From IMG/VR virus record IMGVR_UViG_3300042294_003666, positions 1 through 32,649 of that record: 32,649 bases of DNA; one strand, given 5' to 3'. The translations under genes were made by a program, and so were the position numbers. The notes under the pieces are model-generated. The model was not told the origin of the DNA. It did not search any database and saw only the letters and a list, made by a program, of their open reading frames with translations. How positions within the stretch are numbered: position 1 is the stretch's first letter; every line of letters starts with the position of its first letter. Origin of the DNA: a virus. Below are positions 101 through 31,898 of the stretch, piece by piece.

Positions 101-1077
101 CGAAACGATCCCCCTCTAAAAGCAGGGTTTACAATGCCCATCTCCTTACCATCAACAACGAGCTTCGCCGTTGGCTTCCCGTGAATCCGCACGGCCTTTT
201 CTGCGATCTTAAAGCCGTAGTCGTTCCAGTAGTACCTGAAACGCCCGTCATTGAACGGGAGCGCCGGCCCTGCCGTTGCCACAACCTGCCCGTTATCGGC
301 GACCAGCTCAACGCGCTTGGCCTTTGGCGGCATGATTAGCACGGGTTTGTATGCTCGAGGTTCCGGCGGTGTTTCGTGCCGGTCGGCGTGGGACTTCCAA
401 AGGAGGTTGCGGCGGTACTTCACGTCACCCGCAGGGGTGCGCAGGTAAATGATCGAGTCGATCAGGTCCGAGTTCGGCCATGCCTTACGTTCCGGGCGCG
501 GGGTTTTGTCGTTAGTGTTAAGCCGACCGTTGAAGGCCGGATGCCACCAGAAGTAAACCTGAGCCTTAGTGTGGGCGGCCTTACTCTTCTCAACGTCGCC
601 GTCGACGCACGAGGCACCATCCCAGGAGTAGTTATAGGCACCTTTCGGCGCGGCCTTGTCGCCGTGTATTTCGTTTTTGAATTTACGCGAAAAACCACCT
701 TTCCAGGGGGTGTTTACAGGGGCGCAGCTCGGTGCCTCGTTTGCGACGATCTCAAGGTAAGGATCGGGGTTTGCAAGGTTGTGTTCACAAAACGGGCTGA
801 TCTCAATTTGCACTTGCGGGAACGCGCGCTTAAGGATCTCGTACTCCCTAGCAAGCCGGCGCACGGTTGGTATCTCAGCAGCCCCGAAACTATGCGTATC
901 ACTCCACAAAAGGTGCACGCGAAACAAGGGGCAACGACCGGTTTCAAGCAACCGCCTGACCGCGGGCAAAGCATTGCCAAACGTGTTAGCAAAGCAACCC
1001 GCTGCCCAACCGGCCGGGTGCTCACGCACCGCGAGATCAACAAACTTTGGCAATCCTAGATAGTCTAATCCGTACAT
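97..1077 (-). CDS. Phage protein of unknown function, possibly TIM-barrel-like hydrolase fold
   Basis: 326 codons starting at ATG 1075-1077, with a GAGGAG ribosome binding site about seven bases upstream. No signal peptide or membrane segment is seen. The N-terminal half alternates hydrophobic strands and amphipathic helices (VHLLWSD near residue 55, then IEISPFCEHN near residue 90) in a way that recalls TIM-barrel glycoside hydrolases. Many Trp, His and Asn residues follow (VYFWWHPAFNG near 175), and the C-terminal third looks beta-rich. I do not recognise a named family. A carbohydrate-active role, such as lysis or envelope degradation, is possible but is only inference. It is the largest unassigned gene of the leftward block and ends in an ATGA overlap with the gene at the left edge. 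Confidence 0.75.
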   Translation of the reverse strand: MYGLDYLGLPKFVDLAVREHPAGWAAGCFANTFGNALPAVRRLLETGRCPLFRVHLLWSDTHSFGAAEIPTVRRLAREYEILKRAFPQVQIEISPFCEHNLANPDPYLEIVANEAPSCAPVNTPWKGGFSRKFKNEIHGDKAAPKGAYNYSWDGASCVDGDVEKSKAAHTKAQVYFWWHPAFNGRLNTNDKTPRPERKAWPNSDLIDSIIYLRTPAGDVKYRRNLLWKSHADRHETPPEPRAYKPVLIMPPKAKRVELVADNGQVVATAGPALPFNDGRFRYYWNDYGFKIAEKAVRIHGKPTAKLVVDGKEMGIVNPAFRGGSFR

Positions 1078-1089
1078 GTATCCGCTCCT

Positions 1090-1653
1090 CTATTCACACG
1101 AAAAGGTTTCAGTTTGCCTCGCTAATCCTTTGGGGAACTCAAGGCGGCTATCAGTAAAACTACGCTCACGAAATACAACGTGGTTAGTCGGTTGAACGGT
1201 CAAACGCCCGTCAACCGTCTTGATGAAACAAAACTCCTTTGCTTGTTCAGGGTACGCACTAAACCCGTCGCCAACAGGCGCAGCCGTAAACAGGTAGCTA
1301 CCAACGACGTGCCGACCATTAGCGATTGCAGCGCAATCAAGCCCGGCCAAGTACCGATACTCGAGCACCGTAAACCCCTCGCCGTAACAGTCCCAGGCTT
1401 GCGCATCCTCCGGCGTCCAGGGCATCGCGGGCCGATCCTCAAACGCCATCGCATGAGCTGGCACGTTGCGGTAAATAGCCCCACACTCGAGCATCACCGT
1501 GCAGCCCCATAACCGACCCGGATACGAAACAAGCCCAAACCAGACGCAGGGAACAAACCGCGGCTTTTGCACCGCTTTGTACACAAACTTGGTATCCACG
1601 AAGCAGTACAGATGCCGGGGCAGCTCACCGACTAGCGTATACATCGCGCTCAT
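1090..1653 (-). CDS. Hypothetical phage protein, 187 aa
   Basis: The ATG at 1651-1653 forms a TAATG junction with the stop of the upstream gene, which decides this start; a GTG at 1662 is an alternative. The product is soluble and rich in aromatic residues and Cys (HLYCFVDTKFVYKA near the N-terminus, then VPCVWFGLVSYPGR). A Pro-Trp-Thr-Pro-Glu-Asp segment lies mid-protein. No catalytic motif, signal peptide or membrane segment is visible. It sits in the tightly packed leftward block between two other unassigned genes. Function unknown. Confidence 0.75.
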   Translation of the reverse strand: MSAMYTLVGELPRHLYCFVDTKFVYKAVQKPRFVPCVWFGLVSYPGRLWGCTVMLECGAIYRNVPAHAMAFEDRPAMPWTPEDAQAWDCYGEGFTVLEYRYLAGLDCAAIANGRHVVGSYLFTAAPVGDGFSAYPEQAKEFCFIKTVDGRLTVQPTNHVVFRERSFTDSRLEFPKGLARQTETFSCE

Positions 1654-1907
1654 TATGGCCACTCAGCACAAGCATACATGCCGTTTTTGGAGGTGCGATC
1701 AACGACCTCAATCGACGATATGCGCGGGATCTCCATCACCCGCTCAACGATTGCTCGAGGTGAAAGCCCTTCTACGTCGGCGAGGATATCGAGCAGGTCG
1801 GCAGTTGATCCGCTTGTCTGATCAAACTCCGGTCCCTCTTGCCGCCACACGCGGATCTCAAAATGGGTAGTGTGAAACTTGGTAATTGATTCAACGAGTG
1901 TAGCCAT
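1653..1907 (-). CDS. Hypothetical small phage protein, 84 aa
   Basis: Starts at ATG 1905-1907, just after the stop of the metalloprotease gene (1909-1911), and shares one base with the start of the next gene in TAATG. The sequence is a plausible small alpha/beta protein: FEIRVWRQEG is followed by a helix with LLDILADVEGLSPRAIVERV and a terminal strand ISSIEVVDRTS. No known family recognised. The overlap on both sides supports a real gene in an operon. Confidence 0.7.
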   Translation of the reverse strand: MATLVESITKFHTTHFEIRVWRQEGPEFDQTSGSTADLLDILADVEGLSPRAIVERVMEIPRISSIEVVDRTSKNGMYACAEWP

Positions 1908-1908
1908 C

Positions 1909-2922
1909 TTACTGATCCCTTTCCCTGCAAAACTTCAGTTTGTTCAGCGCGGATTGCGGCCAAGGTAGCCACGTTGAGCTTTTATCAACTGACGAAAGTG
2001 GCCCAGGGTGCATGATTGAAACGGGTAAGGTCTCGTCGTGAGAAAAACCGAGCATGTGCCCGATTTCGTGAGCGATAGCGATAACTGAATGACGATATCG
2101 CGGTCGACCTTCCGCGTTACTCATAAGCGCGCTCGAGATACCGACCCGCTTGCCACCGGACCAGTAGCACGTTGACTCATACGCCTGACCAACGATCCAG
2201 AGTGCCCCTTGAAACTGCACAGGCGGCAAAATGGCATAGTGGATCGCTCGTCTTCCCTTGTAACGTCTCCCTGTGAAGTAATCTTCTTCGTACCACCAGT
2301 GCGCGTTATCGACACCGTACCCCTCGAGCCGCGTAGCCCTCTTCCGAGGGTTTGGCGCGCACTTGAACCAACGCAGCCGGAGATCTATACCCAGGGGTGC
2401 ATAGAGCGCTTTTACATCGTCAAACATGCGCCGACCCTCTTCACACGTCACCGAGTGCTCACCGGTCGCAACGACAAGCGACACCGGCACCGTTTGCGCC
2501 GAGGCTACTACCGGCACCGCAAACAGGAGGGGAAAGGCAAGGCGTTTGCAAAAACCGCACTTTAAAAGCGCAACTCCATGTTTTGCCAAGCGTTTCACGC
2601 GGCGCAAAAACCTTTTACCTTGCCTTTTCCCCACAATCATTTTTCCCTTTGGCATCGCACTCTCAAGCGCGCAGGGTAGCGATCGGCGTTGTTTGACCCA
2701 CGCCTCAAAGTTGTCGTGCTTGTACCAAAGAAAAGAAGTTTGCCGCGCAGCTTCAAAGGCGTCCTGGCGGATCACCTCGAGCTCGTCGGATGTCACAAAC
2801 CAACCCTCTTCGATCCGGTCGTCGGGGTGGTACGGCATTAGGTTCTCACCGATAGCGCTTACCCGGTACGGAATGCGGGCGCCATCTTCGCGCAAGTAGG
2901 TGTGCAAATGTAATTTACGCAT
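1909..2922 (-). CDS. Metzincin-type zinc metalloprotease with internal signal/anchor segment
   Basis: Predicted zinc endopeptidase. Near residue 285 it has HEIGHMLGFSHDE, which fits the HExxHxxGxxH zinc signature, followed by a Met-turn candidate SIMHPG. I place the start at ATG 2920-2922 (MRKLHLH), which overlaps the MarR stop by eight bases; a longer in-frame ORF starts inside the MarR gene. The first 110 or so residues are a soluble acidic/basic domain I do not recognise. Next comes a Lys/Arg-rich stretch, then a hydrophobic segment LAFPLLFAVPVVASAQ that looks exactly like a signal peptide h- and c-region. The catalytic domain would therefore lie outside the inner membrane. An internal start at MPKGK (2653-2655) could give a separate secreted form. 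The protease is probably a moron or an envelope-acting enzyme; its substrate is unknown. Confidence 0.8.
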   Translation of the reverse strand: MRKLHLHTYLREDGARIPYRVSAIGENLMPYHPDDRIEEGWFVTSDELEVIRQDAFEAARQTSFLWYKHDNFEAWVKQRRSLPCALESAMPKGKMIVGKRQGKRFLRRVKRLAKHGVALLKCGFCKRLAFPLLFAVPVVASAQTVPVSLVVATGEHSVTCEEGRRMFDDVKALYAPLGIDLRLRWFKCAPNPRKRATRLEGYGVDNAHWWYEEDYFTGRRYKGRRAIHYAILPPVQFQGALWIVGQAYESTCYWSGGKRVGISSALMSNAEGRPRYRHSVIAIAHEIGHMLGFSHDETLPVSIMHPGPLSSVDKSSTWLPWPQSALNKLKFCRERDQ

Positions 2923-3358: not shown

Positions 3359-3587
3359 TATTTCCCTCCACAAAACGTCGTAATCTCTCAAACTCAACAA
3401 CCCCGATCCGCTTGCTATGCTGCAAGAGCACAAATTGCCTTGCCCGCGCTTGCTCGAGCACCAGCTCGGCACCCTGAAACATCGCGGTTCTCAGCATGGC
3501 GCCGATCTCCGAGCGGCTTATCGTCACCTCGAACTCGTTCGGGGTATCGGGTATCGCTAGTTTTATTTGATCAAAAAGCTCGCTCAT
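3345..3587 (-). CDS. Hypothetical phage protein, 80 aa
   Basis: Begins at ATG 3585-3587 in an ATGA overlap with the upstream gene and ends inside the start region of the MarR gene. The soluble product has an acidic N-terminus, a central segment EFEVTISRSEIGAMLRTAM and a basic C-terminal helix. No family recognised. The 14-base overlap with the MarR start suggests translational coupling, so the two may be expressed in fixed ratio. Confidence 0.65.
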   Translation of the reverse strand: MSELFDQIKLAIPDTPNEFEVTISRSEIGAMLRTAMFQGAELVLEQARARQFVLLQHSKRIGVVEFERLRRFVEGNNEPK

Positions 3588-3787
3588 TTAACCCGTTGAA
3601 GTGCGCGTTGATTCGCGGCTGGTTGCATGTAGATCGCGGCCTCGGCTACACCTCGGATCTTGCCCTCCTCGTATGCTCGAGCGAGGCGAACGGATGTCAA
3701 GTGGTGCCGTATGCCGACCCCCATAACGAAGCCCGCCAGCGAGAAGAAACACGCAAACAACAACAGAAACTCGATATCACTTGTCAT
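3584..3787 (-). CDS. Small membrane protein, 67 aa
   Basis: ATG at 3785-3787 overlaps the preceding stop (ATGA). The N-terminal 25 or so residues form one hydrophobic membrane segment (FLLLFACFFSLAGFVMGVGI); the rest is a hydrophilic, probably cytoplasmic tail with Arg and Gln. A short N-out single-pass protein is likely. No family recognised. Position in the early block argues against a role in late lysis, but that is inference. Confidence 0.65.
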   Translation of the reverse strand: MTSDIEFLLLFACFFSLAGFVMGVGIRHHLTSVRLARAYEEGKIRGVAEAAIYMQPAANQRALQRVK

Positions 3788-4110: not shown

Positions 4111-4112
4111 GA

Positions 4113-4328: not shown

Positions 4329-4846
4329 TTCGCTACCTCGAGCATGGGCGCGACTCGCGCGGTAATAGCTGGCAGCACCTTGGCCTTGAACTCGTCGCGG
4401 GTACGAAGCCCGCCGTACACTTTCCAGAAATGGGCGCGGTTGGCGGCTTCGTCCTCGGACTTCCAAGCGCAGATATCAGGCCACCCGAGCGCCCGCACGG
4501 TAGCAACGAGGCGATCACCGCCCTTAGTGCGCAGATACTCTCGCGCCTGGCCGGGTGAGTAGCGACCAAACCGGCGCACGGCCTCAGTCACTACGCCCCA
4601 GGCTTCGCCGTCTGTAAGCTCATCAGCGCCGCGCATCCGGTCGAGCGTTGCGTAAACCTGGCCGATGGTTGGCGGAAAGTTCCCCGCGTGGCTCTTGAGT
4701 GCCGCGCGCATCACTTCCCAGAACTCGGTCGGCGTCATCGTCGGGAACGAATCCGCCCAGAGTCGCACCATCGGCTCAGTGACGACGAAGTGCGGCCATG
4801 CCAAAAACGCCGTAGTCAAAATTTTGCCCATTTCGCTAGTTCGCAT
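4325..4846 (-). CDS. Replicative helicase loader/inhibitor-like protein (G39P-like)
   Basis: 173 residues from ATG 4844-4846, which overlaps the initiator gene stop. The N-terminal 70 residues follow the layout of the G39P family that binds and loads the replicative helicase: a helix, then EPMVRLWADSFPTMTPTEFWEVMRAA-type helices, then GNFPPTIGQVYATLDRM, with the typical FPP(T)I turn. The rest is helical and charged (EAWGVVTEAVRRFG). Placement right after the initiator gene fits an initiator-plus-loader pair like lambda O and P. Family assignment is from pattern recognition only. Confidence 0.65.
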   Translation of the reverse strand: MRTSEMGKILTTAFLAWPHFVVTEPMVRLWADSFPTMTPTEFWEVMRAALKSHAGNFPPTIGQVYATLDRMRGADELTDGEAWGVVTEAVRRFGRYSPGQAREYLRTKGGDRLVATVRALGWPDICAWKSEDEAANRAHFWKVYGGLRTRDEFKAKVLPAITARVAPMLEVAK

Positions 4847-5696
4847 CGCGCTCCTCCGCTTCCAGTTTTGCTATCAGGTCGAGGTGAGTTTTTATCTGTC
4901 GGTCGGATTGTGACTCCTGACCCATAGCCAGTTCCTCGTTTAAGCCCCTCCAGCCCTTCGCTACGGCACGATCTACGAGCGCCGCGTATCTCCGGGGGTC
5001 CGATTCAAATTGGCGCACCTGGATGGCGTATGAGTCGATCAGGCAGGGATGCCCCGAGCGCGCCTTGTACTCGACCCACCGGGCAAGAGCCGCACGAGCT
5101 TGCGCGCCCCAGAGCGGAGGGAAATCAAAATCAGCTTCCGAGTAGGTGCGATACTTATCCGCGCGCGCGCGTTTCCGATCATTCTGGTTGTTATTCTGGT
5201 TCTGGTTCTTATTCTTATTCTGGTTCTTATTCTTATTGGGGCCGTTGAACGAAGCGTCAACGGCCGTTGCTACGCTCGTTGAACGGTCGTTCAACGAGCG
5301 TTGAGCACGCTTTTCAGCAGATAAGCGACCGGCTTCTTTACGTTGTTCCAGCGCCTTCTCGTATCGCTCCATGCGCTCGAGCAGGGATCGGGAACGGATC
5401 GCCCCGGTTTCGTCCCTTTCGAACAAACCGACGTTTACGGCTAAATCGATGAAAGTTTCAAAGTCGTTTGAACGCTCGTTCAACGAGAGTGCAACGGCCG
5501 TTACCGCGTCGGCCTGAATGCAGTACCGGGAATCCTCGCGCATCACCTCGAGGCACGCGAAGTACAGACCATAGTACGCCCAGCCACCGGCAGCGCGGAG
5601 GCGTAGCACCTTCTGATCGGATCGGGCGTTTGCGTCGTGTATGAAACCGGCCGATTCTTTTCGGCGGCGTTGTGGTACACTGTTGTGGGCGGTCAT
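4836..5696 (-). CDS. Phage replication initiator-like protein (Lin1244/DUF4373-type N-terminus)
   Basis: 286 residues from ATG 5694-5696, preceded by GAGGATGAC as ribosome binding site. Residues 20-95 resemble the Lin1244/DUF4373 winged-helix domain of phage replication proteins (DQKVLRLRAAGGWAYYGLYF, then EVMREDS and a helix). A basic helical stretch follows, then a low-complexity Asn/Lys/Gln linker at about residues 153-172, a basic segment and a C-terminal domain (DFDFPPLWGAQARAALARW). The linker and the preceding segment are encoded by repeated DNA that looks like an origin. With the downstream loader-like gene this forms the replication module. A role in binding the origin is inferred from lambda O. 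Confidence 0.75.
   Translation of the reverse strand: MTAHNSVPQRRRKESAGFIHDANARSDQKVLRLRAAGGWAYYGLYFACLEVMREDSRYCIQADAVTAVALSLNERSNDFETFIDLAVNVGLFERDETGAIRSRSLLERMERYEKALEQRKEAGRLSAEKRAQRSLNDRSTSVATAVDASFNGPNKNKNQNKNKNQNQNNNQNDRKRARADKYRTYSEADFDFPPLWGAQARAALARWVEYKARSGHPCLIDSYAIQVRQFESDPRRYAALVDRAVAKGWRGLNEELAMGQESQSDRQIKTHLDLIAKLEAEERDAN
5160..5300 (+). repeat. Candidate replication origin inside the initiator gene
   Basis: Three structures lie side by side within the initiator coding sequence. A 12-base CG alternating run spans 5160-5171. A T-rich microsatellite of TTATTC and TTCTGG-type units spans about 5181-5238. Inverted and palindromic elements span 5243-5300: CGTTGAACG at 5243-5251, the perfect palindrome CAACGGCCGTTG at 5258-5269, and a perfect 12-base inverted repeat (CGCTCGTTGAAC and its complement, four-base spacer) at 5273-5300. 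Two of these words recur at 5477-5502. Iterons beside a skewed AT-rich stretch inside an initiator gene is the lambda ori arrangement; the function here is inference. Confidence 0.6.
5465..5502 (+). repeat. Second cluster of origin-type repeats
   Basis: A degenerate CGTTTGAACG at 5465-5474 is followed by CGTTCAACG at 5477-5485, then CAACGGCCGTT at 5492-5502. The last two are exact copies of words in the 5243-5300 cluster, about 190 bases away. Both clusters encode a similar peptide (SLNERS and SLNDRS), so a duplication or a shared DNA constraint is possible. Confidence 0.55.
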
Positions 5697-5970: not shown

Positions 5971-7026
5971 TTAAAACTTTAGCAGGTGGGCCACGTTATC
6001 CGATTTTGCGCGCCTCAACTTATCGTAGTGCTCTATCATCGCAACGGAACCATGACGAGAAAATTTGGCAACCTCCCGATGAGGCACGCCATCTTCGAGG
6101 AGCTTGGTGATAGCGGTAGCTCGAGCGCAGTGTGGGGAAAAAGAGCCGGTGAGCCCGACGCGGCGCATGTATAGGCCAAAGCTCCGTCGTACTGTCCTGT
6201 CGTACAAAAACTCGTTGATGGGTTTCCCAGCGCGGTATTTCGTAAAAAGCGGATCGAGGTCGGCGGTATGGTGCCCCCGTCGTATCTGAAGATATGCACG
6301 GACGTGCTCGGCAGCCCAGGCGCCGATGCTTTGCTCCTCAGCACGTTGGCGTTTTGTATTGCGGAGCGTAAGCACTATCGACCCCTCTGGCCCCTCTTTA
6401 ACGTCACCTACGCGCAAGTTGATGGCCTCATTAAGACGCAAGGCGCCCCCGAAAAGCGCCGCTAATAGTGCCTTATCTTGCGCCCCTTCGGCCTCAAAAA
6501 AGTTTAGCTTGAAAAGCTCGGCAACGTTTTGAAAAGGGACAAGTTGATGGGGACGTCGGTCGTTGCCTCGGATGCGTTGCATATCGCGCTTAGGTTTTCT
6601 CCACGGGTTTGACGTTACGGCAGCAAGGTTTACCAGCTCGTCCCAGATCGATGAGAGCACGATAATCTTATGTTTTACAGTTGCAAGGCTCACGCGGTCG
6701 GAGATGGATGCGCTCCTCCCCGCTTGCGCCGGCAGCGTGCGCAGGTAGTTGGAGTACCGCGTCACCTCGACATGGCCGACGGTTTTAAGCCGCGCCGCGC
6801 CAGCCGCGTTGAATTCAATGCCGAACAACCCACAAAATTCTTCCAGGATTTTGCGATATTGCCGAGCGGTAGTTCTAGCCTTGAGTTCGAAAAACTGATT
6901 TAGATCGTCAAACATTCCCCACGTATCCCGTTTGTCGTTAGAACGAATGTTGATCGACAAATTAACGGGATTGTTGCGTGTGTCCGTGGTCGTTTGAATG
7001 AGGCGCAGTGTTGGGCGAGTATTCAT
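5971..7026 (-). CDS. int: Tyrosine recombinase (phage integrase)
   Basis: 351 residues from ATG 7024-7026, preferred over a GTG six bases upstream because AAGG lies five bases before it. Integrates and excises the phage genome by strand exchange through a covalent 3'-phosphotyrosyl link. A SAM-like core-binding domain covers about residues 35-140. The catalytic domain carries Arg197 (GGALRLNEAIN), Lys225 (RNTKRQ), His299 and Arg302 (SPHCARA), His325 (FSRHGSVAM) and Tyr334 (IEHYDKL), so all key residues are present. It lies between the replication genes and recT; the repeat-rich region at its 3' side is the likely place for attP or arm sites. No excisionase recognised. Confidence 0.93.
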   Translation of the reverse strand: MNTRPTLRLIQTTTDTRNNPVNLSINIRSNDKRDTWGMFDDLNQFFELKARTTARQYRKILEEFCGLFGIEFNAAGAARLKTVGHVEVTRYSNYLRTLPAQAGRSASISDRVSLATVKHKIIVLSSIWDELVNLAAVTSNPWRKPKRDMQRIRGNDRRPHQLVPFQNVAELFKLNFFEAEGAQDKALLAALFGGALRLNEAINLRVGDVKEGPEGSIVLTLRNTKRQRAEEQSIGAWAAEHVRAYLQIRRGHHTADLDPLFTKYRAGKPINEFLYDRTVRRSFGLYMRRVGLTGSFSPHCARATAITKLLEDGVPHREVAKFSRHGSVAMIEHYDKLRRAKSDNVAHLLKF

Positions 7027-7040
7027 GCACACCTTGTTGT

Positions 7041-7076: not shown

Positions 7077-7922
7077 TTATCCGGTTGTCACCTCTCCGGT
7101 GTCGAGGTCGATTGTCACATCACCATCAACAGCGGCGAGAAACGCTTCAACGGCTTTCCGGTCGAGGTCCAGTAGCTTGTTTACATTTGCAAGCAGCTTA
7201 GGGGCGTCGGCTTGGTACGCATCGCGCACCGTTTGACCCTGCAAGCTGCACCGCGTTGTAATGACCCACCGGGCAAGCGCGTCAAGATCCTCCCCGTCAA
7301 TCGCGTTTTGCAACACCTTTGCCGGGTCGGTATGGAACGAAGCAGGTACATCGTCACCGTCGGGCATCGGCATGATGCGGCTCACCTTGGGGCGCTCAAC
7401 AAGCGTCACTTCATCTATTTCCTCCCTCGAGTACAGGCCGCCCAGGATGTCGGCGAACATATTCCTAACCAAAATCGACACCGCTCGAGCGTACAACATC
7501 GCCTTTGGCATCCGTTTCCAGTTGTCTTTAGAGGTGAGCCCGGCGCGGGTGGCATCTTCCCAGGAGTAGGAAGCGGAGTCCGTCCAATCGCCGCGGGTAC
7601 ACTCGAGGGTGCAAACGGTGTCGCTCCATTCGAGGGTTTTGATACGGCCACCATGCGCGATTGCGAGACTCTTCAAGGCTTGCGCCTCGAGCGTCGGTTT
7701 GCCGTTTATTACGGTGATCGAGTTGAGCGCGCGGATAGGTGAAAACCCAAGCTCTCGGCCGTACAGGATAGCCGTCAACACGCTCTCGGGGCTCCGGTAG
7801 TGGTTTGGCAACATGCCCGACTTGAGCAGCACCACCGCCATGCTCAACTTTTGCGAGAGGTTGTTTGCGTAGCTCTCAATTGACGCTGGCCCTTCCGTAA
7901 TCGTTGCTAGGTCTTTACTCAT
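7077..7922 (-). CDS. recT: RecT-family single-strand annealing protein
   Basis: 281 residues from ATG 7920-7922, overlapping the preceding stop by eight bases. Binds single-stranded DNA and anneals complementary strands for phage recombination. Family features: a helical start, then YRSPESVLTAILYGRELGFS and PIRALNSITVINGKPTLEAQ (the RecT core), a strand-rich part with WKRMPKAMLYARAVSILVR, and an acidic tail ending in DLDTGEVTTG. The partner exonuclease usual in recET-type modules is not recognisable nearby. It lies in the leftward block just before the integrase. Confidence 0.9.
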   Translation of the reverse strand: MSKDLATITEGPASIESYANNLSQKLSMAVVLLKSGMLPNHYRSPESVLTAILYGRELGFSPIRALNSITVINGKPTLEAQALKSLAIAHGGRIKTLEWSDTVCTLECTRGDWTDSASYSWEDATRAGLTSKDNWKRMPKAMLYARAVSILVRNMFADILGGLYSREEIDEVTLVERPKVSRIMPMPDGDDVPASFHTDPAKVLQNAIDGEDLDALARWVITTRCSLQGQTVRDAYQADAPKLLANVNKLLDLDRKAVEAFLAAVDGDVTIDLDTGEVTTG

Positions 7923-8404: not shown

Positions 8405-8435
8405 GCCGGCATAGCCCTCCTCGAGCTACGCCGGC
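8405..8435 (-). terminator. Stem-loop between two leftward genes
   Basis: GCCGGCATAGC at 8405-8415 and GCTACGCCGGC at 8425-8435 form an 11-base stem with one mismatch or wobble and a nine-base loop. It follows the stop of the small membrane protein gene. No T run follows on the minus strand, so termination, if any, would need a factor; otherwise it is an mRNA-end stabiliser. One CTCGAG copy spans the loop and stem. Confidence 0.4.
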
Positions 8436-9513: not shown

Positions 9514-9582
9514 CGGGCATCCTGGGCGCTATATGGGCCGTCTGTCCTTGTAAAGTTGTCCAAGTGGCCTTACCTTGAAGGG

Positions 9583-10881: not shown

Positions 10882-11213
10882 GCCGCAAGCCCTGGGAACC
10901 GAGCGAACAGGATCGCAAGCTAGTGGAGAAGATGGCGGCGTGCGGCGTCCCGCAGGACCAGATCGCCGCGGTGCTTGGGCGCGACCCGAAGACTCTTCGG
11001 AAGTATTGCGCCGAGGAGCTCGACCACGCAGCAACCCGAGCAAACGCAAACGTTGCGGCATCGCTGTATCAGGCGGCCATAAAGGGGAACGTAACGGCTC
11101 AAATCTTCTGGTGCAAAACCCGGCTCGGATGGAAGGAAGTGCAGCAGGTTGAGCACTCAGGAAAGATCGAATCCATCACTGTGAACGTTGTACGAAAAGA
11201 GCCGCCTAAGTGA
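10878..11213 (+). CDS. Terminase small subunit-like DNA-binding protein
   Basis: 111 residues, ATGA overlap with the methyltransferase and a GTG overlap with the large terminase. An N-terminal HTH (KMAACGVPQDQIAAVLGRDP, then KTLRKYC) is followed by a helical oligomerisation region ending in AASLYQAAIKGNVTAQIFW and CKTRLGWKE, a pattern common to small terminases of phages and prophages. It would recognise packaging sites and regulate the large subunit. Called from motif and position. Confidence 0.85.
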   Translation: MSRKPWEPSEQDRKLVEKMAACGVPQDQIAAVLGRDPKTLRKYCAEELDHAATRANANVAASLYQAAIKGNVTAQIFWCKTRLGWKEVQQVEHSGKIESITVNVVRKEPPK

Positions 11214-20675: not shown

Positions 20676-20924
20676 ATGAAGCAGATAGTTTTTGGTTTGG
20701 TTGCAGTAGTAGCGTTGTCAGGATGTGCGGCTAAGGTAGTAGAGCAGCAGATTGCAGCGCAGCAGCAAGCATTGTTCATGGTAGGCGCAAAGGTCTTAGA
20801 GCTTGAGGCAATCGTAAAACCCGAGAAGGCAAGCGTTATCAACGCAGCCCTTTCTCGAGGCGAGGTTCAGATAGATCCCCCTGATATTAAGCATGACAAA
20901 CAAACCAACTCTAAGGAGGACTAA
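20676..20924 (+). CDS. Small lipoprotein, 82 aa
   Basis: ATG 20676 after AAAGGAAAA. Residues 1-17 are a lipoprotein signal peptide with lipobox LSGC, so the mature N-terminus is Cys17. The mature part is an Ala/Gln/Glu-rich helix (KVVEQQIAAQQQALFMVGAK) likely to be coiled coil, then a Pro/Asp-rich tail. Third of four exported products in a row. Could be an outer-membrane exclusion protein or a spanin-like part; neither is supported by motif. Confidence 0.75.
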   Translation: MKQIVFGLVAVVALSGCAAKVVEQQIAAQQQALFMVGAKVLELEAIVKPEKASVINAALSRGEVQIDPPDIKHDKQTNSKED

Positions 20925-22369: not shown

Positions 22370-24028
22370 ATGGCAGAGCAGCAACCCAACCCTCAGATGT
22401 TTGCCGGCGTTGATTTCTCTCAGTATCCAAGCTGGCAAAAGGTAGTTACACCTCGAGGAGCGGTCCTGTATGTAGTTCCTGGCACGGGCTGGGTGTACGA
22501 TCCGTTTCTCTCGGCAGCCAAGGGCCGGCCGGTTCTATCGCCTAATCCTCAGCAAGAGATTGACGATAGGCAGCGCGTCATTGACAACCAAAACGCAAAC
22601 ACCCGCGCGCAATCACCCGAGGGGCAAATAATACCAGTATTCGGCGGCGTGGCTGGCACGGTCGGCGGAGCAGCGGCGTATAATTACATCAGCAATTCAG
22701 GCAAACCCTCCCCGACAATAGATCCGCAAGTTGACGCGCAGGTGGTAGTAAATCCTACTCCTCCCCCTGCCACATCATCGCAGGGTTTTGTGGAGGGAGC
22801 GCAAACCGGCGCAAGTGTCGCGCCGGTCGGTAACACCATCCCGGCCGGGTCGCCGGTCCCTGCCGGATATACAGCGGTCGGCACAAACCCCGACGGTGGC
22901 ACTCTCGTAGCGCCCACGAGCCAGGTGAACGCAATTCCCGAGGAAGCATTAAACGATCCCGGTTTTCTGTCCTCGGTGAATTGGGGACAAGTGGTACAAG
23001 GCGGCCTTGGGCTTGCGCAACTCTATGGCGCGTATAGAGGCTATCAGAAGGGCGACTATGTAGGAGCCGGGTTATCCGGTGCAACCGGGGCGGGCAATAT
23101 AGCGCTTGCTACCGGCGTAGCATCACAGGGTGGCACAATGGCCACACAGGTGATCCCAGGGCTCAACATCGCAACCGGCCTGTACACGGGCTACCAAACA
23201 GCCGACGCCATGGGCGACATGGCCGCAGGAGGCAAGCGCACGAGAACGGGCGTTATTGGTGGAGCAAGCAGCGGCGCCGCGATTGGTGCCGGTGTGGGTT
23301 CGCTTTTCTTTGGCGCAGGGGCAGCACCGGGCGCCGCGATTGGTGCAGTAGTCGGCGCAATAGCAGGCTTGGCGGGGGATAAATTCGGCAGCTCCAAGGG
23401 CAAAGCGCAATTCATGCGGGACGGCATACGCACCGAGCTGCAAAAGGGCGGTATCCTCGATGAGAACTACCAAGGCACACTCGCCGATGGCACTAAGTAC
23501 GACTTTGGAAAAGACGGCTCGACTCTCAAGTGGAAAGAGATCGATAAAGTTGCAGCCGAGAATAAAAACGCATGGGACGCAGCGGTGCCCCTCGGTGATG
23601 CGCTCTCGGCCGGGTACGGTTTCGTCGGACAAAAGGCAAGCGACATCACCGCATGGTACTCAAAAGCCGCGGTAAGCAACGCAGGCGACGACCCCGAGAA
23701 AGCAAAGGCCAACATGCGGCACTTTGCCCGCCAGCAGGGTATTACCTACGAAGGGATCAAGCAGAAGCTCGACGAGGCCAAAGCGGATAACCGGATTGAT
23801 GAAGCCCAATACAACTACTACCTTGGCGGCGCTCAACAGCTCAACGAAGGTAACTCACCGCAGCCGCCTCAGATGCAGAAGCAAGGCGTTGCACCAATAC
23901 CGGGCACACCACAGGCACCAGCTCGTAGCAAAACCATCTCCCCTGGTATCGACCTACAAGGGCGGCGCGTCAACTACTCGGACATGGGCAAGCAGCTTGC
24001 AAACCGAATGAATAAGCGGGGGCGCTAG
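22370..24028 (+). CDS. Probable ejection/internal virion protein with glycine-zipper region
   Basis: 552 residues from ATG 22370 (MAEQQPNPQ), two bases after the neck stop; an earlier in-frame ATG lies inside the neck gene. The N-terminal half is Pro/Gly/Val/Thr-rich and disordered. Residues about 300-340 are a strong Gly/Ala zipper (GVIGGASSGAAIGAGVGSLF, GAAIGAVVGAIAGLAGDKFG), able to insert in membranes. A Lys/Asp-rich helical C-terminus follows. Short-tailed phage ejection proteins often have such zippers. Role inferred from order (neck, this, hub). Confidence 0.7.
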   Translation: MAEQQPNPQMFAGVDFSQYPSWQKVVTPRGAVLYVVPGTGWVYDPFLSAAKGRPVLSPNPQQEIDDRQRVIDNQNANTRAQSPEGQIIPVFGGVAGTVGGAAAYNYISNSGKPSPTIDPQVDAQVVVNPTPPPATSSQGFVEGAQTGASVAPVGNTIPAGSPVPAGYTAVGTNPDGGTLVAPTSQVNAIPEEALNDPGFLSSVNWGQVVQGGLGLAQLYGAYRGYQKGDYVGAGLSGATGAGNIALATGVASQGGTMATQVIPGLNIATGLYTGYQTADAMGDMAAGGKRTRTGVIGGASSGAAIGAGVGSLFFGAGAAPGAAIGAVVGAIAGLAGDKFGSSKGKAQFMRDGIRTELQKGGILDENYQGTLADGTKYDFGKDGSTLKWKEIDKVAAENKNAWDAAVPLGDALSAGYGFVGQKASDITAWYSKAAVSNAGDDPEKAKANMRHFARQQGITYEGIKQKLDEAKADNRIDEAQYNYYLGGAQQLNEGNSPQPPQMQKQGVAPIPGTPQAPARSKTISPGIDLQGRRVNYSDMGKQLANRMNKRGR

Positions 24029-25635
24029 TGCCGAGTGTTGGAGTACCACTACCGCCACCGTTTAAGGGTCAAAACGATCAGCTCCCGGCGTTTTCGCTTG
24101 AAAACCCCTTTTGCGTACGGATGCAAAATCTAAACAATGATAGAGGGATCGTTTCGCTCAGGAAGGGCAATAAAAAATTCGCGCAAGTCACAGCCAATGC
24201 CCCTCGAGCGTTGGCGATTGCATCTTACGGCGACAAGCTTTTTATGGTCGTGGATGACTCAACCGCCTACGCGAGATTTTACGACATTACCACCGGCACG
24301 CCGTCCTCTGTATATGTGACACCAAACGACGGGTTCGGAGATAGAGCGGTAGAAACCTTATATTTCAACAACTACCTGTTTTTTTTCGGGGACGGAGGGA
24401 TCGCAGGAGGCGGACTAATACCGGCATCCGACGGACCGGTTTATTACAACGGAAGCGCGTGGGGTAAAGCCACGTGGACCTACACCGGCAGCGCAAAACC
24501 GTTCGGGGGTGCTGTCTATAAAAACCGTGCTTACCTATTAGACTGGGGAACCGCTGACTATTTCTACACCAATATAGACGCAATCAGCGGAGTCACAACG
24601 CGCGTGAGTCTCGCAACCATCATCAGCGAGAAGGCGGAGCTTTTTGCAATTAAAAGCGTGTCGCTATCCGAGAACGTGACGCAAGAAAACTTGATTGCTT
24701 TCATACTGAGCAGCGGTGAGATTTTGATTTATAGCGGCTCGTATCCCAACTCTGAAAGTTGGCGCATTGTATCGCGACTAAAAACCGCGCCGCCGCTTTA
24801 TTATAATTCTACTATAGACGCGAAGGGCGATACGTTTTTATTGACCCGAACGGAGATCCTGTCACTTCGCAACTTGATTGCTAAAGGCTACGATGCCGAG
24901 CGGCGCGAAGGAATCGGTGCGGCTATTGAAAGCCGGTATAAACAAATTATCCAAGCGCTTACAGGATCGAGTGGCACGACGCCGTTTACAAGAGGCGTAT
25001 ACGATAAAAAGAATGACCGGCTTATTGTATCGTTTGGGTTTTATGTCGACCCGTCGGTGGCGCCGGGAGTGGTTGGCACGGGGCAGGTCGGGTTTTTTCA
25101 ACTAATTTACGATTTTGGGCTGGGCGCCTGGTACGAGTACTATCAGCTAACACCAGACACAACAGAGTGGACAAATATTGATATCACCGAGTTTAAAGAT
25201 GGTGTTTACGTTTTAACCAAAGGGAGCAAGGGCGCAAATGTCTATGCTACGGCCCATTTAATTGAAGGGCAAACCGGCTACCTCGACGACAACATAGTAA
25301 GTGATACTCAGGGCGTCCCTTACAAGCTCACCTCGGCCCCTCACCCGCTCAACCGCTACGGCGTTGTGAAAACTGACGGCCTTGAGGTCATCATGAAAAG
25401 CGATATTTACTCGACCGCCAAGTGGCGCCTTATCGGCGATCTTGGAGCGCAGCAAACCGCCGAGCAAGTAACAAGCGGCAACGGCTCAAACGTAACTAAA
25501 ACGTTTGTGAACCTCGGCATTGAATCGAATCTCGTACAGTATGAGCTCTCGGGCACCTCAACAACGTCCACCGTCGGCCTCGAGGTATACGGTACAAATC
25601 TTTGGGTTAATCCTTCGCAGGGGGTAGCGCGCTAA
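24028..25635 (+). CDS. Tail hub/nozzle-like beta-propeller protein
   Basis: 535 residues, GTG start overlapping the previous stop (TAGTG). It resembles the P22 gp10 / nozzle group: a Pro-rich start (VPLPPPFKGQND), NPFCVRMQNLNNDRGIV, then repeating strands (ALAIASYGDKLFMVVDDST, LYFNNYLFFFGDGG, AYLLDWGTADYFYTN). The C-terminal part contains the platform-like region. This type forms the tube below the adaptor. Base composition is slightly more A/T-rich than the genes around it. Confidence 0.75.
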   Translation: MPSVGVPLPPPFKGQNDQLPAFSLENPFCVRMQNLNNDRGIVSLRKGNKKFAQVTANAPRALAIASYGDKLFMVVDDSTAYARFYDITTGTPSSVYVTPNDGFGDRAVETLYFNNYLFFFGDGGIAGGGLIPASDGPVYYNGSAWGKATWTYTGSAKPFGGAVYKNRAYLLDWGTADYFYTNIDAISGVTTRVSLATIISEKAELFAIKSVSLSENVTQENLIAFILSSGEILIYSGSYPNSESWRIVSRLKTAPPLYYNSTIDAKGDTFLLTRTEILSLRNLIAKGYDAERREGIGAAIESRYKQIIQALTGSSGTTPFTRGVYDKKNDRLIVSFGFYVDPSVAPGVVGTGQVGFFQLIYDFGLGAWYEYYQLTPDTTEWTNIDITEFKDGVYVLTKGSKGANVYATAHLIEGQTGYLDDNIVSDTQGVPYKLTSAPHPLNRYGVVKTDGLEVIMKSDIYSTAKWRLIGDLGAQQTAEQVTSGNGSNVTKTFVNLGIESNLVQYELSGTSTTSTVGLEVYGTNLWVNPSQGVAR

Positions 25636-26756
25636 TGGCTAAGTTCATCACAACGAAATACGGAACAAAAATCAACGTAGAAGGGCTCACGCCCAAGCAA
25701 ATTGCCAAGGTGCGCACCACAGCAGAGGGAAAGGGCGCGTACGGTGCAAAAGGTGCCGCGCTTGCGCAAGAACTGAGGAAGCGCAACGAGACGAAGGCGA
25801 CCACCGGTGGAAATACCACCGAAGGTGTACAAGGCGATCCGGGAATACCGATAACGAGCGAAACCCAAAAAGTTGATCTTGGTGTGACGCCCGGAACGGG
25901 AGCGATAGATCCAGAAAAAGCCGGCTCAGCGCTAACCGGCGCCGAAGAGAAGGACTCCGAACGGAACTTCAACATGAACAACCCCGGCGTCGAGGTCGAT
26001 GCGTTTGGGAATAGAAGGATCATTGAACGAGATCCAGCGACCGGAGCAGTTTCAACCCGTATTGAGAGCGGAGCGCTGGCTACAGGGGCACAGGGGCTTT
26101 TAAGTGGTGCGATCTCCAATTTTGGAGCAAACGGCAATATTGACCTTTCGGGAGCACCGAGGATCCTTGAAACCGGCGACGTGCGAGACCAGGCGCAAAA
26201 GGTCGGTGATGCCAACTACTCGTACATCACCCGGAACGTGGAGCGCAACAAACGGCGGGAGCTCGAAGCAGCAAAACAAGAGCTTGCCGAGCGTGGTATT
26301 CCAATAGACTATGCCAACCCAGATTCGATGTGGAACAAGGCCACAGGTGCAATCAATCAACGGTATGACGATATCGACCAGGCCGCGAGCAATCAGGCAA
26401 TCATGGGCCGCGATGCCAGCATGGGCGCACTGATATCGGGGCAAAGTACAGCGCGCAACGCGTTTGTTTCGGGAGCAACGACCGTTGCCGAAAACGCTCG
26501 AGCAAACCTAAACAGCTCTCTAGCCGCAAGCGGCGCGCTATCGGGAGAGTTCACCCCGTACGCCGGAGGGTCGGTTGATCAATCCGGGGTACTCGGTAAC
26601 CTCGTCAGTAAGATGAGCGATGCAGAGTTAGCCCGCTACGGGATTGATAAAGATTACGCCGCCAAGCTACGGGCCATCAACAAGCCAAGTGGGGGCAGCG
26701 GTGGAGGCGCGGCGGTTCAGGATAACAGTCCAATTTTCATGGGGAGCCAAGGATGA
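25635..26756 (+). CDS. Probable internal virion / ejection protein, 373 aa
   Basis: ATG 25635 overlaps the hub stop (TAATG). Soluble, Gly/Ala/Asn-rich. N-terminal 50 residues are basic (KFITTKYGTKINVEGLTPKQ); the middle has VRDQAQKVGDANYSYITRNV and an Arg/Glu helix; the C-terminal half is helical and Ala/Ser-rich, ending Gly/Ser-rich. No enzymatic motif. Position between hub and the large ejection proteins suggests it is packaged in the head. Confidence 0.65.
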   Translation: MAKFITTKYGTKINVEGLTPKQIAKVRTTAEGKGAYGAKGAALAQELRKRNETKATTGGNTTEGVQGDPGIPITSETQKVDLGVTPGTGAIDPEKAGSALTGAEEKDSERNFNMNNPGVEVDAFGNRRIIERDPATGAVSTRIESGALATGAQGLLSGAISNFGANGNIDLSGAPRILETGDVRDQAQKVGDANYSYITRNVERNKRRELEAAKQELAERGIPIDYANPDSMWNKATGAINQRYDDIDQAASNQAIMGRDASMGALISGQSTARNAFVSGATTVAENARANLNSSLAASGALSGEFTPYAGGSVDQSGVLGNLVSKMSDAELARYGIDKDYAAKLRAINKPSGGSGGGAAVQDNSPIFMGSQG

Positions 26757-27910: not shown

Positions 27911-30712
27911 ATGGCCCCACCAATACCCATTACTCGAGCAGAATACGAAGCAAGGTTCGGCGGCGTTGCGGCACCTGTCGAGGCACCCGTTGCGGCGCCT
28001 ATTCCTATTACTCGAGCCGAGTATCAGGCGAAGTTCTCTCCGCCCGTACCTTCGATATGGAGCGATCCGATCGACGCACTCACCTCTTACGATTGGTGGA
28101 CAACTCGACCGGATGGCTCAAAGTCGGGGCTTATCGGCCCGGTGATGGCAGCCGGCCAGGGGCTCACGTTTGGCACAATGGACGAGATCGCAGCGGGCGG
28201 TAACGCCCTTCTAGACCGAATATTCAGCGGCGTTCCTCTCTCAGAGGCGTACGATCAGCGGCTTGAGCAGACGCGCGGGGTGCTCAAGGATTATCAGGAA
28301 ACAAGCCCAGGGCAGGCGTTTGTTATTGAGCTCCTTGGCGCGGCGAACCTTCCCTTTAAGAGCGCCATCGGAGAGAAGGCAGGAATCGGGGCAAAAACGT
28401 TACAAGCGGCAAAAGAAGGCGGCACGCTTGGCGCCCTCTACGGGTACGGCAGCGGCGAAGGTGGGGCGTTGCAGCGCGCGGAAAGCGCAGCAATCAGCGG
28501 CGGGATAGGTGCCGGAGCGGGCGCGGTCCTTACGCCTGCAATCGAGGGAACGGTGCGCGGTGGGCAGTGGCTCGCCGATAAAGCAGCAGAGATCGGCATC
28601 ACACCGAAAGCCCTGATCGACGACCTCGCCGAGGCGTTGTTCAGCGGCTCAGCAAGCTCGCAGCGCGGTTCTATAAGCAACCGCCCAACGGGCGCCGGGC
28701 TCACACCGGAGGAGCTATACCTTGCACGACGCCTAAAGAACGTACCAGCAAGCGAGATCGACCGTGCAGCGGTGGAGCTGGCAGAGGCGGATGCTCGAGG
28801 GGTTCCCCTCTACCTGCAAGAAGCGTTAGGGGATCGCGGTGTGATGAGCAACGCCAACCTAGTAGCAACGCAGCCAGGGACGGCCGGGCAAGCGGGGCGC
28901 GCAATCGAGGCGAGAACCGCGGCGACACGGGATCGTATGTCTAACCTCCTATCGGGTGTGTCAGACGAGATTGATCCGTATACGGGGGCACAACGGCTAC
29001 AGAGCGCAGGAAAGAAGATAGTTGGTAAAGCCAAAGAGGACTTGAAAGAGATTGGCGAGGCGTTATATCGGCCAGCGTATGACCTCGCACCAACTATCGA
29101 TGATCCGAAACTAGTGGAATTGATCGACAGCGACAAATACCTACGTGATGAAATCAGGAGCCTACAGAATACCGCCGAATATTCAAAGCTGCCGCAAAAC
29201 TCGACTGAATTGTTAGTCAATTCGCGCAGCGGGCTCGACGACAGGATTAACAAACTAGCAGAGAAAGAGCCTAACTTGGCGCGCGCCATAAGAGTAGGCA
29301 CGTACAATAAGCTCAATGAAATCATCGGCGATGCGGTGCCAGAAGTGCGCGCAGCCGATGAGCTCTACGCAGCAGCAGCTCAAAAGATCGACGACCTAAA
29401 CAGCACGTTTCTGGGCTACCTCAACAAACTTGGACCTGACAAGATCGACAATGTGACGCAGCTTCTCGACCGGCCACCGACGCGCATCTCAGCACTTCGG
29501 GATAAGTTTATAGATGCCGGCCTTGAACAAGAATGGAACGCCGGCGTTCGGTCGGTTCTTGATCTGAAACTCATGGGCATGAAAAGCGGGCAAAACATGG
29601 CCGACCGGCTGGCAGGTGTCCCGGAGATGGAAAAGCAGATCCGCGCGGCGCTTGGTGATAAAGCCGATGACGTGCTTAGAGGTTTGTTCTTCGAAGATAA
29701 GATAGCTCGAGGTAAGAACGCTTACGCCGTAGGATCTCAGACTCAGCCGCGACAAGCCGAGGCCGAGGACGTAAAACAGGCGGCTTCGCTCCTGCAATCC
29801 ATCATTGGATTGGATTACAAAACAGCGATGGCGAAGTTGTTTGATCAAGGGATGCCCGAGGATCTTGCGCAGGGGCTTGCGGATATTTATTTCAACCCCA
29901 CCAGGGGCAAGGACACACTCACGCGGGTGGCTTCACTCCTCGATGATTACGCGCGGAACAGAAGGGCCGCCGATGCCGTCATGAAAGGCGCAAACGTTGC
30001 TACAACGCGCGGAGCAGCTACCAGCGCCGACGATTATATGGATCTCGGAACTGTTGGACTTAGCGGACGTTCGGGAACCACATCACCTTCATCACAAGCG
30101 GGAAAAACAGGATCAGCAAAATCACCACGATCAGAAGCACGTTCGTCGTCACCTGCGACTCAAGATAAGGCATCACCAAATCCAAAAGATTCTGAAGGAA
30201 AAGATCCCTCTTTTCGGCCTGTGTCATATACCGAAAACGATAGCCTGTTTAACGACCTTTTTGAAGGGGCAGATATGCGCGACGTAAAAGCGGTGGAAGC
30301 AGAGATTGATCAAGATGCGTACCTTTCGGCACTCTACGAGACAGAAAGCGGCCGAAACCCCAAAGCAAAAAACCCCAAATCCACGGCCTCGGGAGGGTTT
30401 CAGTTTATTAAGCGCACGGCGGCATCGCTCGGCCTCGAAGACCCGTTCGACTTGGATCAAAGCCTGACGGCGGTCAGAAGACTCACCGACGAGCATAAAA
30501 AGCTGTTTGGTGACGATCCGGCAGTGCTGTACTCGGCTCACTATCTGGGATCTCCCCTTCTCCGCAAAGTGCAGCGGGGCGCCGAGCTTACCGCGAAAGA
30601 GCAGGAGATAGTTGATTCGCTTCTACAGAAAGCATTGCCCCGGTTCCTCCGGATCTATAAGAGAGTCGCAGATCGTGACACCAACGAAGGCGGCGGGCAG
30701 GTGACGGCATGA
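27911..30712 (+). CDS. Large ejection protein with C-terminal lytic transglycosylase domain
   Basis: 933 residues from ATG 27911, directly after the preceding stop. Residues 1-35 hold two copies of PITRAEYxA(R/K)F separated by a Pro/Ala/Val linker. The middle is long and helical with a Gly/Ala-rich segment near 180-200. A Ser/Thr/Pro/Lys linker lies about 725-765. Residues about 795-925 look like a soluble lytic transglycosylase domain: YETESGRNPKAKNPKSTAS, then GGFQFIKRTA, with Glu812 as the likely catalytic acid. It would cut peptidoglycan while DNA enters, like T7 gp16. It ends in an ATGA overlap. Confidence 0.85.
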   Translation: MAPPIPITRAEYEARFGGVAAPVEAPVAAPIPITRAEYQAKFSPPVPSIWSDPIDALTSYDWWTTRPDGSKSGLIGPVMAAGQGLTFGTMDEIAAGGNALLDRIFSGVPLSEAYDQRLEQTRGVLKDYQETSPGQAFVIELLGAANLPFKSAIGEKAGIGAKTLQAAKEGGTLGALYGYGSGEGGALQRAESAAISGGIGAGAGAVLTPAIEGTVRGGQWLADKAAEIGITPKALIDDLAEALFSGSASSQRGSISNRPTGAGLTPEELYLARRLKNVPASEIDRAAVELAEADARGVPLYLQEALGDRGVMSNANLVATQPGTAGQAGRAIEARTAATRDRMSNLLSGVSDEIDPYTGAQRLQSAGKKIVGKAKEDLKEIGEALYRPAYDLAPTIDDPKLVELIDSDKYLRDEIRSLQNTAEYSKLPQNSTELLVNSRSGLDDRINKLAEKEPNLARAIRVGTYNKLNEIIGDAVPEVRAADELYAAAAQKIDDLNSTFLGYLNKLGPDKIDNVTQLLDRPPTRISALRDKFIDAGLEQEWNAGVRSVLDLKLMGMKSGQNMADRLAGVPEMEKQIRAALGDKADDVLRGLFFEDKIARGKNAYAVGSQTQPRQAEAEDVKQAASLLQSIIGLDYKTAMAKLFDQGMPEDLAQGLADIYFNPTRGKDTLTRVASLLDDYARNRRAADAVMKGANVATTRGAATSADDYMDLGTVGLSGRSGTTSPSSQAGKTGSAKSPRSEARSSSPATQDKASPNPKDSEGKDPSFRPVSYTENDSLFNDLFEGADMRDVKAVEAEIDQDAYLSALYETESGRNPKAKNPKSTASGGFQFIKRTAASLGLEDPFDLDQSLTAVRRLTDEHKKLFGDDPAVLYSAHYLGSPLLRKVQRGAELTAKEQEIVDSLLQKALPRFLRIYKRVADRDTNEGGGQVTA

Positions 30713-31077
30713 CCGACCCGATCCGGCTTTACGAGATAAACGGCGAGGTGTGCACGGTGCAGTGCGCAACTTTGGCCGCCCCGTTAGCGCTTAATCAAAC
30801 GCTTGTGCCCGCTGTGACGGGTAAGCGAATCAGGGTCATGGGATGGATAGCGCAGAGCGGAGGCGCGGTTGTCGGCGCGTTTGGCCTTAAAAACGGCGCA
30901 ACGGGCGCCTATATTATGTTCCTAAAACGGGTGCCCGCAATCACTGACGGGCTTATCGAGAAACTGCCCATAGTCGATTGCGGCTACATGGAAACTAGCA
31001 CAGGTACTGCGCTCGGCCTAGATGTCACCGACGCAGCGGTAAACCTGACCGTTTTTTATATTGAATACACGCCATGA
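30709..31077 (+). CDS. Hypothetical phage beta-rich protein, 122 aa
   Basis: ATG 30709 overlaps the ejection protein stop. No signal peptide. Strand-rich and hydrophobic (RLYEINGEVCTVQCATLAAP, RIRVMGWIAQSGGAVVGAFG, VDCGYMETSTGTALGLDV), like small receptor-binding or virion proteins of other phages. Position before the holin-type genes suggests a tail or lysis-accessory role; not recognised. Confidence 0.65.
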   Translation: MTDPIRLYEINGEVCTVQCATLAAPLALNQTLVPAVTGKRIRVMGWIAQSGGAVVGAFGLKNGATGAYIMFLKRVPAITDGLIEKLPIVDCGYMETSTGTALGLDVTDAAVNLTVFYIEYTP

Positions 31078-31409
31078 TGCAGCAAAACGGGAACGACAAG
31101 CAGCAAACTCACTGCCCGTTCTGGGATGAATGGAAGGAACACAAGCACCGCGCGCTTGAGACCGTCGGCCGCGTCGAGGCAATCGAAGCAACGCTTGTGC
31201 GGGTAGCCGAGAACCTGAACCACCTGGCAACCCTCCCGGCGATCCTTGACCGGCTTGTCGAGTCAGCAACGGGGCGCGACCATGTGCCCACGCGCGTGCT
31301 CCTCGTTATCGTCGGTACAATGGGTACGGTGATTCTCGGGCTTGTCTTTACGATAGTTTTTTTACTGACGGGTGAGAACGTCGGGTGGATTAACCAGCTA
31401 CACAGGTGA
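31074..31409 (+). CDS. Small membrane protein with coiled coil, 111 aa, lysis region
   Basis: ATG 31074 overlaps the preceding stop (ATGATG). An N-terminal hydrophilic coiled coil (ALETVGRVEAIEATLVRVAE) is followed by one strong membrane segment at about residues 80-100 (VLLVIVGTMGTVILGLVFTI). Proteins of this layout commonly precede phage holins, sometimes as holin-like or spanin-like partners. It lies four bases before the holin gene. Confidence 0.7.
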   Translation: MMQQNGNDKQQTHCPFWDEWKEHKHRALETVGRVEAIEATLVRVAENLNHLATLPAILDRLVESATGRDHVPTRVLLVIVGTMGTVILGLVFTIVFLLTGENVGWINQLHR

Positions 31410-31412
31410 TAC

Positions 31413-31625
31413 ATGCAAACAAAACCGCTCATCGCTTCTAAATCGTTCTGGGGTGCGCTGATTGCGCTCCTCCCGGCCGCTTCTGACACCGTACAGCAGC
31501 TTCTTGGCTCGGGCTTTCTCCCTCCCCATGTCACACCATGGCTCGCCGGTGCGGGCGCGTTGTTGGCGCTCCTGGGGCGCGTAACGGCAACCTCACAGAT
31601 CAGCGGGGTGTTGAGCTCGAAATAG
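31413..31625 (+). CDS. Holin-like protein, 70 aa
   Basis: ATG 31413. Two hydrophobic segments (SFWGALIALLPAASDTV and WLAGAGALLALLGRV) separated by a Pro-containing turn, with short charged ends. The pattern SK(T/S)FWGAL... with a second Gly/Ala/Leu helix is common in holins of temperate phages. Late in the rightward operon, as expected. No endolysin is seen next to it; the following gene is a nuclease-like ORF. Confidence 0.72.
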   Translation: MQTKPLIASKSFWGALIALLPAASDTVQQLLGSGFLPPHVTPWLAGAGALLALLGRVTATSQISGVLSSK

Positions 31626-31898
31626 ATGCGCCGCGCCGCTCGAGTCGATGCAAACCACAAAGAGATCGCCGACGGCCTCCGGGCTATCGGGCGCTCGGTG
31701 TTATCGCTTCATCGGCTCGGGCAGGATGCGCCGGATCTACTCGTTGGGAACGGGGATCACAACATCCTCGTTGAAGTGAAAACCGCAAAAGGTAAACTCA
31801 GCGACGGGCAAAAAGCGTTTTTCGAGTGGTGGCGCGGTCCTCGGGCGGTTGTGCGTAGCCTCGAGGAAGCGATAGAAGCTACATCACCAAAGCATTGA
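31626..31898 (+). CDS. Small VRR-NUC-like PD-(D/E)XK nuclease
   Basis: ATG 31626 directly follows the holin stop. 90 residues: RVDANHKEIADGLRAIG, then APDLLVGNGDHNILVEVKTA shows the PD...(D/E)xK core (Asp of PDLL, Glu and Lys of VEVK), then DGQKAFFEWWRGP. This is the compact fold of VRR-NUC and Holliday junction resolvase-type nucleases. It probably acts in packaging or branch removal. It is the last gene of the rightward operon; its stop abuts a minus-strand stop. Confidence 0.75.
   Translation: MRRAARVDANHKEIADGLRAIGRSVLSLHRLGQDAPDLLVGNGDHNILVEVKTAKGKLSDGQKAFFEWWRGPRAVVRSLEEAIEATSPKH

Follow-up and report, generated by a model that had tools for sequence, protein, structure and literature searches.

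The whole IMG/VR virus record IMGVR_UViG_3300042294_003666 (32,649 bp), which was analysed here and is hereafter called the window, carries the gene set of a temperate tailed phage, including an integrase, a RecT-like protein, a replication protein, a DNA methyltransferase, a terminase, a portal protein and a major capsid protein. Throughout its length it is interspersed with the palindrome CTCGAG, the subject of this study (Table 1). Since the contig segment L341:4928-5141 bridges positions 1 and 32649 of the window with about 145 bp in between, the genome is nearly complete and either circular or circularly permuted. Contigs L001-L004, which come from other samples, are 99.8-100% identical to the window, and an assembly artefact is thereby excluded. 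The presence of a tyrosine integrase, indicative of a temperate life style, implies that the phage is able to integrate its genome into the chromosome of its host.

Table 1. Positions of CTCGAG copies and of phage genes in the window.
Feature	Position	Strand	Remark
CTCGAG copies 1-6	354..359, 1360..1365, 1486..1491, 1754..1759, 2132..2137, 2323..2328	.	exact count
CTCGAG copies 7-12	2776..2781, 3453..3458, 3676..3681, 4337..4342, 5376..5381, 5547..5552	.	exact count
CTCGAG copies 13-18	6120..6125, 7426..7431, 7484..7489, 7602..7607, 7686..7691, 8420..8425	.	exact count
CTCGAG copies 19-22	9616..9621, 9808..9813, 9919..9924, 11551..11556	.	exact count
CTCGAG copy 23	11824..11829	.	codons CTC TCG AGG, no CGA
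CTCGAG copies 24-29	12126..12131, 13039..13044, 13396..13401, 13614..13619, 13956..13961, 14178..14183	.	exact count
CTCGAG copies 30-35	14658..14663, 14820..14825, 14928..14933, 15708..15713, 16619..16624, 17070..17075	.	exact count
CTCGAG copies 36-41	17294..17299, 18848..18853, 20854..20859, 22452..22457, 24203..24208, 25579..25584	.	exact count
CTCGAG copies 42-48	26497..26502, 27933..27938, 28011..28016, 28794..28799, 29706..29711, 31639..31644, 31860..31865	.	exact count
Tyrosine integrase	5971..7032	-	marks temperate life style
RecT-like single-stranded DNA-annealing protein	7077..7922	-	
Phage DNA methyltransferase	9556..10881	+	ParB-like N-terminus and N6_N4_Mtase domain; candidate for methylating CTCGAG
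Terminase large subunit	11210..12703	+	query for finding relatives
Portal protein	12702..15116	+	query for finding relatives
Major capsid protein	16731..17717	+	query for finding relatives

Excess of CTCGAG in the window

The original prediction had estimated about 48 copies of CTCGAG against about eight expected. Exact counting gave 48 copies, the first starting at 354 and the last at 31860, which corresponds to 1,470 copies per Mb or about 1.5 per kb, whereas 9.3 were expected from base composition. The expectations of Markov models built from di-, tri-, tetra- and pentanucleotides were 9.4, 13.4, 20.0 and 33.0, respectively, the last of which involves some circularity, as CTCGAG itself raises the counts of CTCGA and TCGAG. 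None of the models from tri- to pentanucleotides, by which the prediction proposed to challenge the excess, predicted about 48. In the tetranucleotide-based model CTCGAG ranked first of all 4,096 hexamers (z 6.2). As had also been predicted, its one-mismatch neighbours were far rarer: each of the 18 words occurred 0-19 times, with CTCAAG (19), CTCGAC (17) and CTTGAG (15) among them.

The count could in principle follow from the proteins encoded, as Leu-Glu written CTC GAG accounts for 24 of the 46 coding copies, i.e. half of them. However, in 300 synonymous shuffles of the 36 genes, which leave all proteins and each gene's codon usage unchanged, the expected number of coding copies was 16.1 ± 3.2 (maximum 27), so that the observed 46 represented an about threefold excess and again the first rank. 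The word was over-represented in each reading frame (CTC GAG, 25 seen and 11.1 expected; xCT CGA Gxx, 17 and 1.8; xxC TCG AGx, 6 and 2.3), and the shuffle result together with the excess in the CGA frame refutes codon or dipeptide usage as the explanation. Seven of the eight sites that had been listed as examples of CGA codons inside the word were correct (13396, 20854, 22452, 24203, 26497, 28794 and 29706); the remaining one, at 11824, is not (Table 1).

The bases flanking the word also mattered. Copies with G or C (S) on both sides numbered 33 against 6.0 expected, those with one A or T (W) 14 against 7.1, and those with two W 1 against 1.7. This preference for G/C outer flanks implies that the effective word is close to SCTCGAGS. 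The density of CTCGAG dropped after 20 kb, with the fold excess unchanged (36 copies against 11.4 before that point and 12 against 3.7 after it), and the spacing of the copies was near-random.

The remaining palindromes of the window behaved in the way usually expected of phages and assumed in the prediction, being avoided overall (385 against about 557 expected). CTCGAG was the opposite of most Type II palindromes, which fell below expectation, such as CTGCAG (0 against 8.4), CAGCTG (0 against 8.0) and CGATCG (3 against 16). The avoidance of other palindromes would be compatible with CTCGAG being one host-protected palindrome that merely escapes the purge, but relaxed avoidance predicts the codon-expected level, whereas the count was three times higher, and we consider this explanation extremely unlikely. 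The strength of the enrichment was also unusual among viruses: the best palindrome in 26 unselected 20-kb viral pieces reached z 6.7, compared with z 7.8 in the first 20 kb of the window. No general excess of CTCGAG was found in 80 unselected viral pieces when these were pooled by content of guanine plus cytosine (GC), the ratios being 0.67, 0.79, 1.18 and 0.49 in the GC classes.

Conservation, turnover and replacement of the word among relatives

The sister phages L005-L009 (records G002-G006), which are about 80% identical to the window at the nucleotide level, carry 15-17 CTCGAG per 10 kb, matching the window. In the shuffle test the seen and expected numbers were 23 and 8.1 in G002, 40 and 13.1 in G003, 27 and 9.3 in G005, and 30 and 12.6 in G006. 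When the window, G003, G005 and G002 were pooled, 138 copies were seen against 46 expected (z 15.5), and the next non-overlapping hexamer in the same pool reached z of about 8.

The copies of the window were kept in 73 of 129 alignable comparisons (about 57%), compared with about 29% for all hexamers. With the retention of the same codons at other places taken into account, 32 of 53 copies were conserved against 15.1 expected, which placed CTCGAG first of 207 hexamers. Gains and losses of CTCGAG were approximately equal, and in a three-lineage comparison 10 of 25 sites had the word in every lineage, against 14% for all hexamers, indicating steady turnover. The conservation together with the balanced gain and loss implies that the excess is a maintained equilibrium and no relic. 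At the same time, conservation and turnover alone do not tell selection from biased conversion.

Other words were depleted in this clade. In the pool of the window, G003 and G005, CTGGAG/CTCCAG was strongly depleted (12 against 42 expected), as were AGGCCC, GGGCCC and CGATCG, and these words are possible targets of host restriction.

Outside the sister group the word disappears from homologous genes. In L010, whose terminase is 81% identical, none of eight alignable CTCGAG sites was kept; L345-L350, which have two proteins in common with the window (77% and 68% amino acid identity), contain no CTCGAG, and the counts in G007 and G013 are 0 and 2, respectively. This implies that the word is a property of a lineage's genomic background and not of particular genes. 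In two further related phages, G015 (L166, L167) and G018 (L168, L169), CTCGAG is almost absent and the top over-represented hexamer is CTGCAG, with 21 copies against 5.2 and 22 against 7.6 expected by the Markov test (the shuffle scores were weaker, 4.6 and 4.1). Both palindromes are raised in G014, G022 and L366. One could imagine an exchangeable palindrome "dialect", in which one clade uses CTCGAG, others use CTGCAG and further ones both or none, serving as a genome-wide identity mark that a system of the host or of the phage would recognise, rewarding the presence of the word instead of punishing it; we regard this idea as speculative and quite unlikely.

The same replacement by CTGCAG in other clades, the maintenance of the word, and a gene block at about 1.6-8.4 kb that is common to the sister phages and mostly absent from CTCGAG-poor relatives could also point to a cis-acting signal of the phage lineage's own, not derived from the host and acting, for instance, in replication, packaging or recombination, or allowing a phage protein to recognise its own DNA. 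Against such a signal speak the near-random spacing of the copies, their free turnover and the palindromic form of the word, which gives it no direction. In addition, none of the shared proteins compared was specific to the palindrome-rich members of the family. Nothing was found for the recombination or segregation signal that the prediction had suggested, and we judge a phage-borne signal unlikely.

Methylation and biased repair as possible sources of the excess

The methyltransferase gene of the window, with its adenine/N4-cytosine methylase domain, raises the question of whether the phage itself methylates CTCGAG and the word accumulates as a consequence. However, sister phages that gave no match to PF01555, though the locus was covered, were equally enriched (other methyltransferase families were not searched there), and a homologue is present in G007, which lacks CTCGAG. 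As the family is absent from enriched sisters and present in a phage devoid of the word, a link of the phage methyltransferase to the enrichment is not supported, and its causal role is very unlikely.

The Myxococcus phage Mx8 (L327) is a distant relative whose capsid protein shows 30% identity, and its adenine methylase Mox acts on XhoI and PstI sites. Mx8 thus resembles the family of the window in its related capsid and in the same pair of palindromes, CTCGAG and CTGCAG, that is enriched there, but in Mx8 both words are depleted (6 copies against 28 and 9 against 22, respectively). The alignment between Mox and the window methyltransferase spans only 85 residues (34%). Because Mx8 depletes both words, a link of Mox to the enrichment was rejected.

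Biased mutation or repair could generate the excess without selection, for instance if an activity resembling very-short-patch repair turned one-mismatch words into CTCGAG. Over-representation of the Vsr type is exemplified by CCWGG in E. coli. In agreement with such a process, CTCAAG or CTTGAG was the commonest replacement where one of three lineages lacked a copy (7 of 15), and the neighbours CTCCAG/CTGGAG, CACGAG and CGCGAG were depleted (ratios 0.29, 0.45 and 0.61). However, Vsr-type repair predicts a depletion of CTTGAG/CTCAAG, and these words numbered 70 against 56 expected. Neither was there any sign of a mutation hotspot at 5-methylcytosine, which was rejected because CTC codons inside the sites were not lost faster than those outside (29 of 42 kept inside and 119 of 224 outside, over three comparisons). 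We therefore find biased repair alone rather unlikely.

A proposed HIP-like word and its presumed host

The closest precedent for the enrichment is the class of highly iterated palindromes (HIPs) of cyanobacteria, every one of which has been linked to a methyltransferase of corresponding specificity (PMC4390886). HIP1 (GCGATCGC) and the alternate HIPs resemble CTCGAG in being GC-rich palindromes with a core and preferred G/C flanks, in their density of about 1,000-2,000 per Mb, in lying in coding sequence and in varying by lineage (PMC4390886). CTCGAG displays three traits of the class, namely an excess after control for composition and codons, a GC-rich word at 1,000-2,000 per Mb, and occurrence in all frames beyond protein content. 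It differs in that the HIPs are cyanobacterial, whereas the word described here belongs to a phage clade and shows a lower fold excess, and no matching methyltransferase was found for it. CTCGAG is absent from the text of the cyanobacterial study (PMC4390886), and no report of it as an iterated palindrome was found in the literature searched, mostly outside subscription journals.

Two further systems offer partial parallels. In Helicobacter pylori, CCGG is likewise a modification-linked palindrome above expectation, over-represented despite its cognate restriction-modification system and with no accepted explanation, but it is a 4-bp word of a bacterial chromosome with known enzymes (PMC4687349). 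Among giant viruses, the relevant passages of PMC7253447 describe methylation of CTCGAG, for example in mollivirus with its 850 CTCGAG sites. Mollivirus thus resembles the window as a virus genome rich in this word, which in its case is methylated; unlike the phage it is a giant virus of eukaryotes for which the methyltransferase is known, and those passages contain no enrichment test (PMC7253447).

The original prediction had pointed to the DNA level, and maintenance at this level is supported by the codon-controlled excess in all frames, the positional conservation among sisters and the absence of the word from homologous genes elsewhere. Of the readings offered in the prediction, a host-wide iterated palindrome and a methylation target are plausible. 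We consider the chances about even that SCTCGAGS is a HIP-like iterated palindrome and that a DNA-level process of the host cell keeps this clade of temperate phages at about 1.5 copies per kb. By analogy with the HIP class, in whose range the 1,470 copies per Mb fall, we infer a host-wide word linked to host methylation, probably to a host CTCGAG methyltransferase. In this case the host genome itself would carry the word at a similar density, and a CTCGAG-specific methyltransferase of the host, solitary or within a restriction-modification system, would mark it. Methylation-dependent selection or biased repair may then preserve the copies, which the phage would acquire during long residence as a prophage or through replication inside those cells, and other, unmethylated palindromes would be purged by restriction.

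The word is abundant in some unrelated viruses as well. A pattern scan for CTCGAG clusters retrieved phages that were for the most part high in GC and not related to the window. Of the unrelated CTCGAG-rich contigs, G050, G052, G053, G054 and G057 were selected by this pattern, and G032 and G035 were met by chance; the phenomenon is thus uncommon yet not unique. The extreme case is G053 (L323), an unrelated GC-rich phage contig with 91 copies in 19.4 kb, often as CTCGAGCTCGAG, where 77 coding copies were seen against about 10 expected and G or C occupies every flank.

Several observations weigh against a host-derived HIP-like word. Two scans with terminase large subunit (TerL) and capsid alignments, covering 84,980 species genomes, found no provirus, and a search for the host through plasmids likewise found nothing. 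Some other CTCGAG-rich contigs (G032) follow the S-flank rule less strictly, and a single host signature is therefore not demonstrable via unrelated phages. Furthermore, a maintained phage-borne signal would give the same picture.

What iterated palindromes such as HIP1 do is a question that has been studied almost solely in cyanobacterial chromosomes. A CTCGAG iterated palindrome in phages would extend the HIP-like phenomenon, and its abundance contrasts with the common view of palindromes as words that phages eliminate. The small clade, in which close relatives have, lack or replace the word, provides a compact natural experiment on its gain, loss and switching.

Three minor features of the window were also recorded. 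A VRR-NUC nuclease (31626-31898) recurs in two sister phages at 90-100% identity and in two palindrome-rich distant relatives at 67-68%, but is absent from others; a shared marker gene of this kind was rejected as a correlate of the enrichment because its presence was inconsistent. A 326-amino-acid protein without a Pfam match (97-1077) has relatives of 41-45% identity in L356, L357, L361 and L362, which are low-GC viral contigs of 61-260 kb. Near the contig end, at 32340-32582, there is a tandem repeat of about 20 units of AGCAGCAGCCCA, the minus strand of which encodes Trp-Ala-rich repeats.

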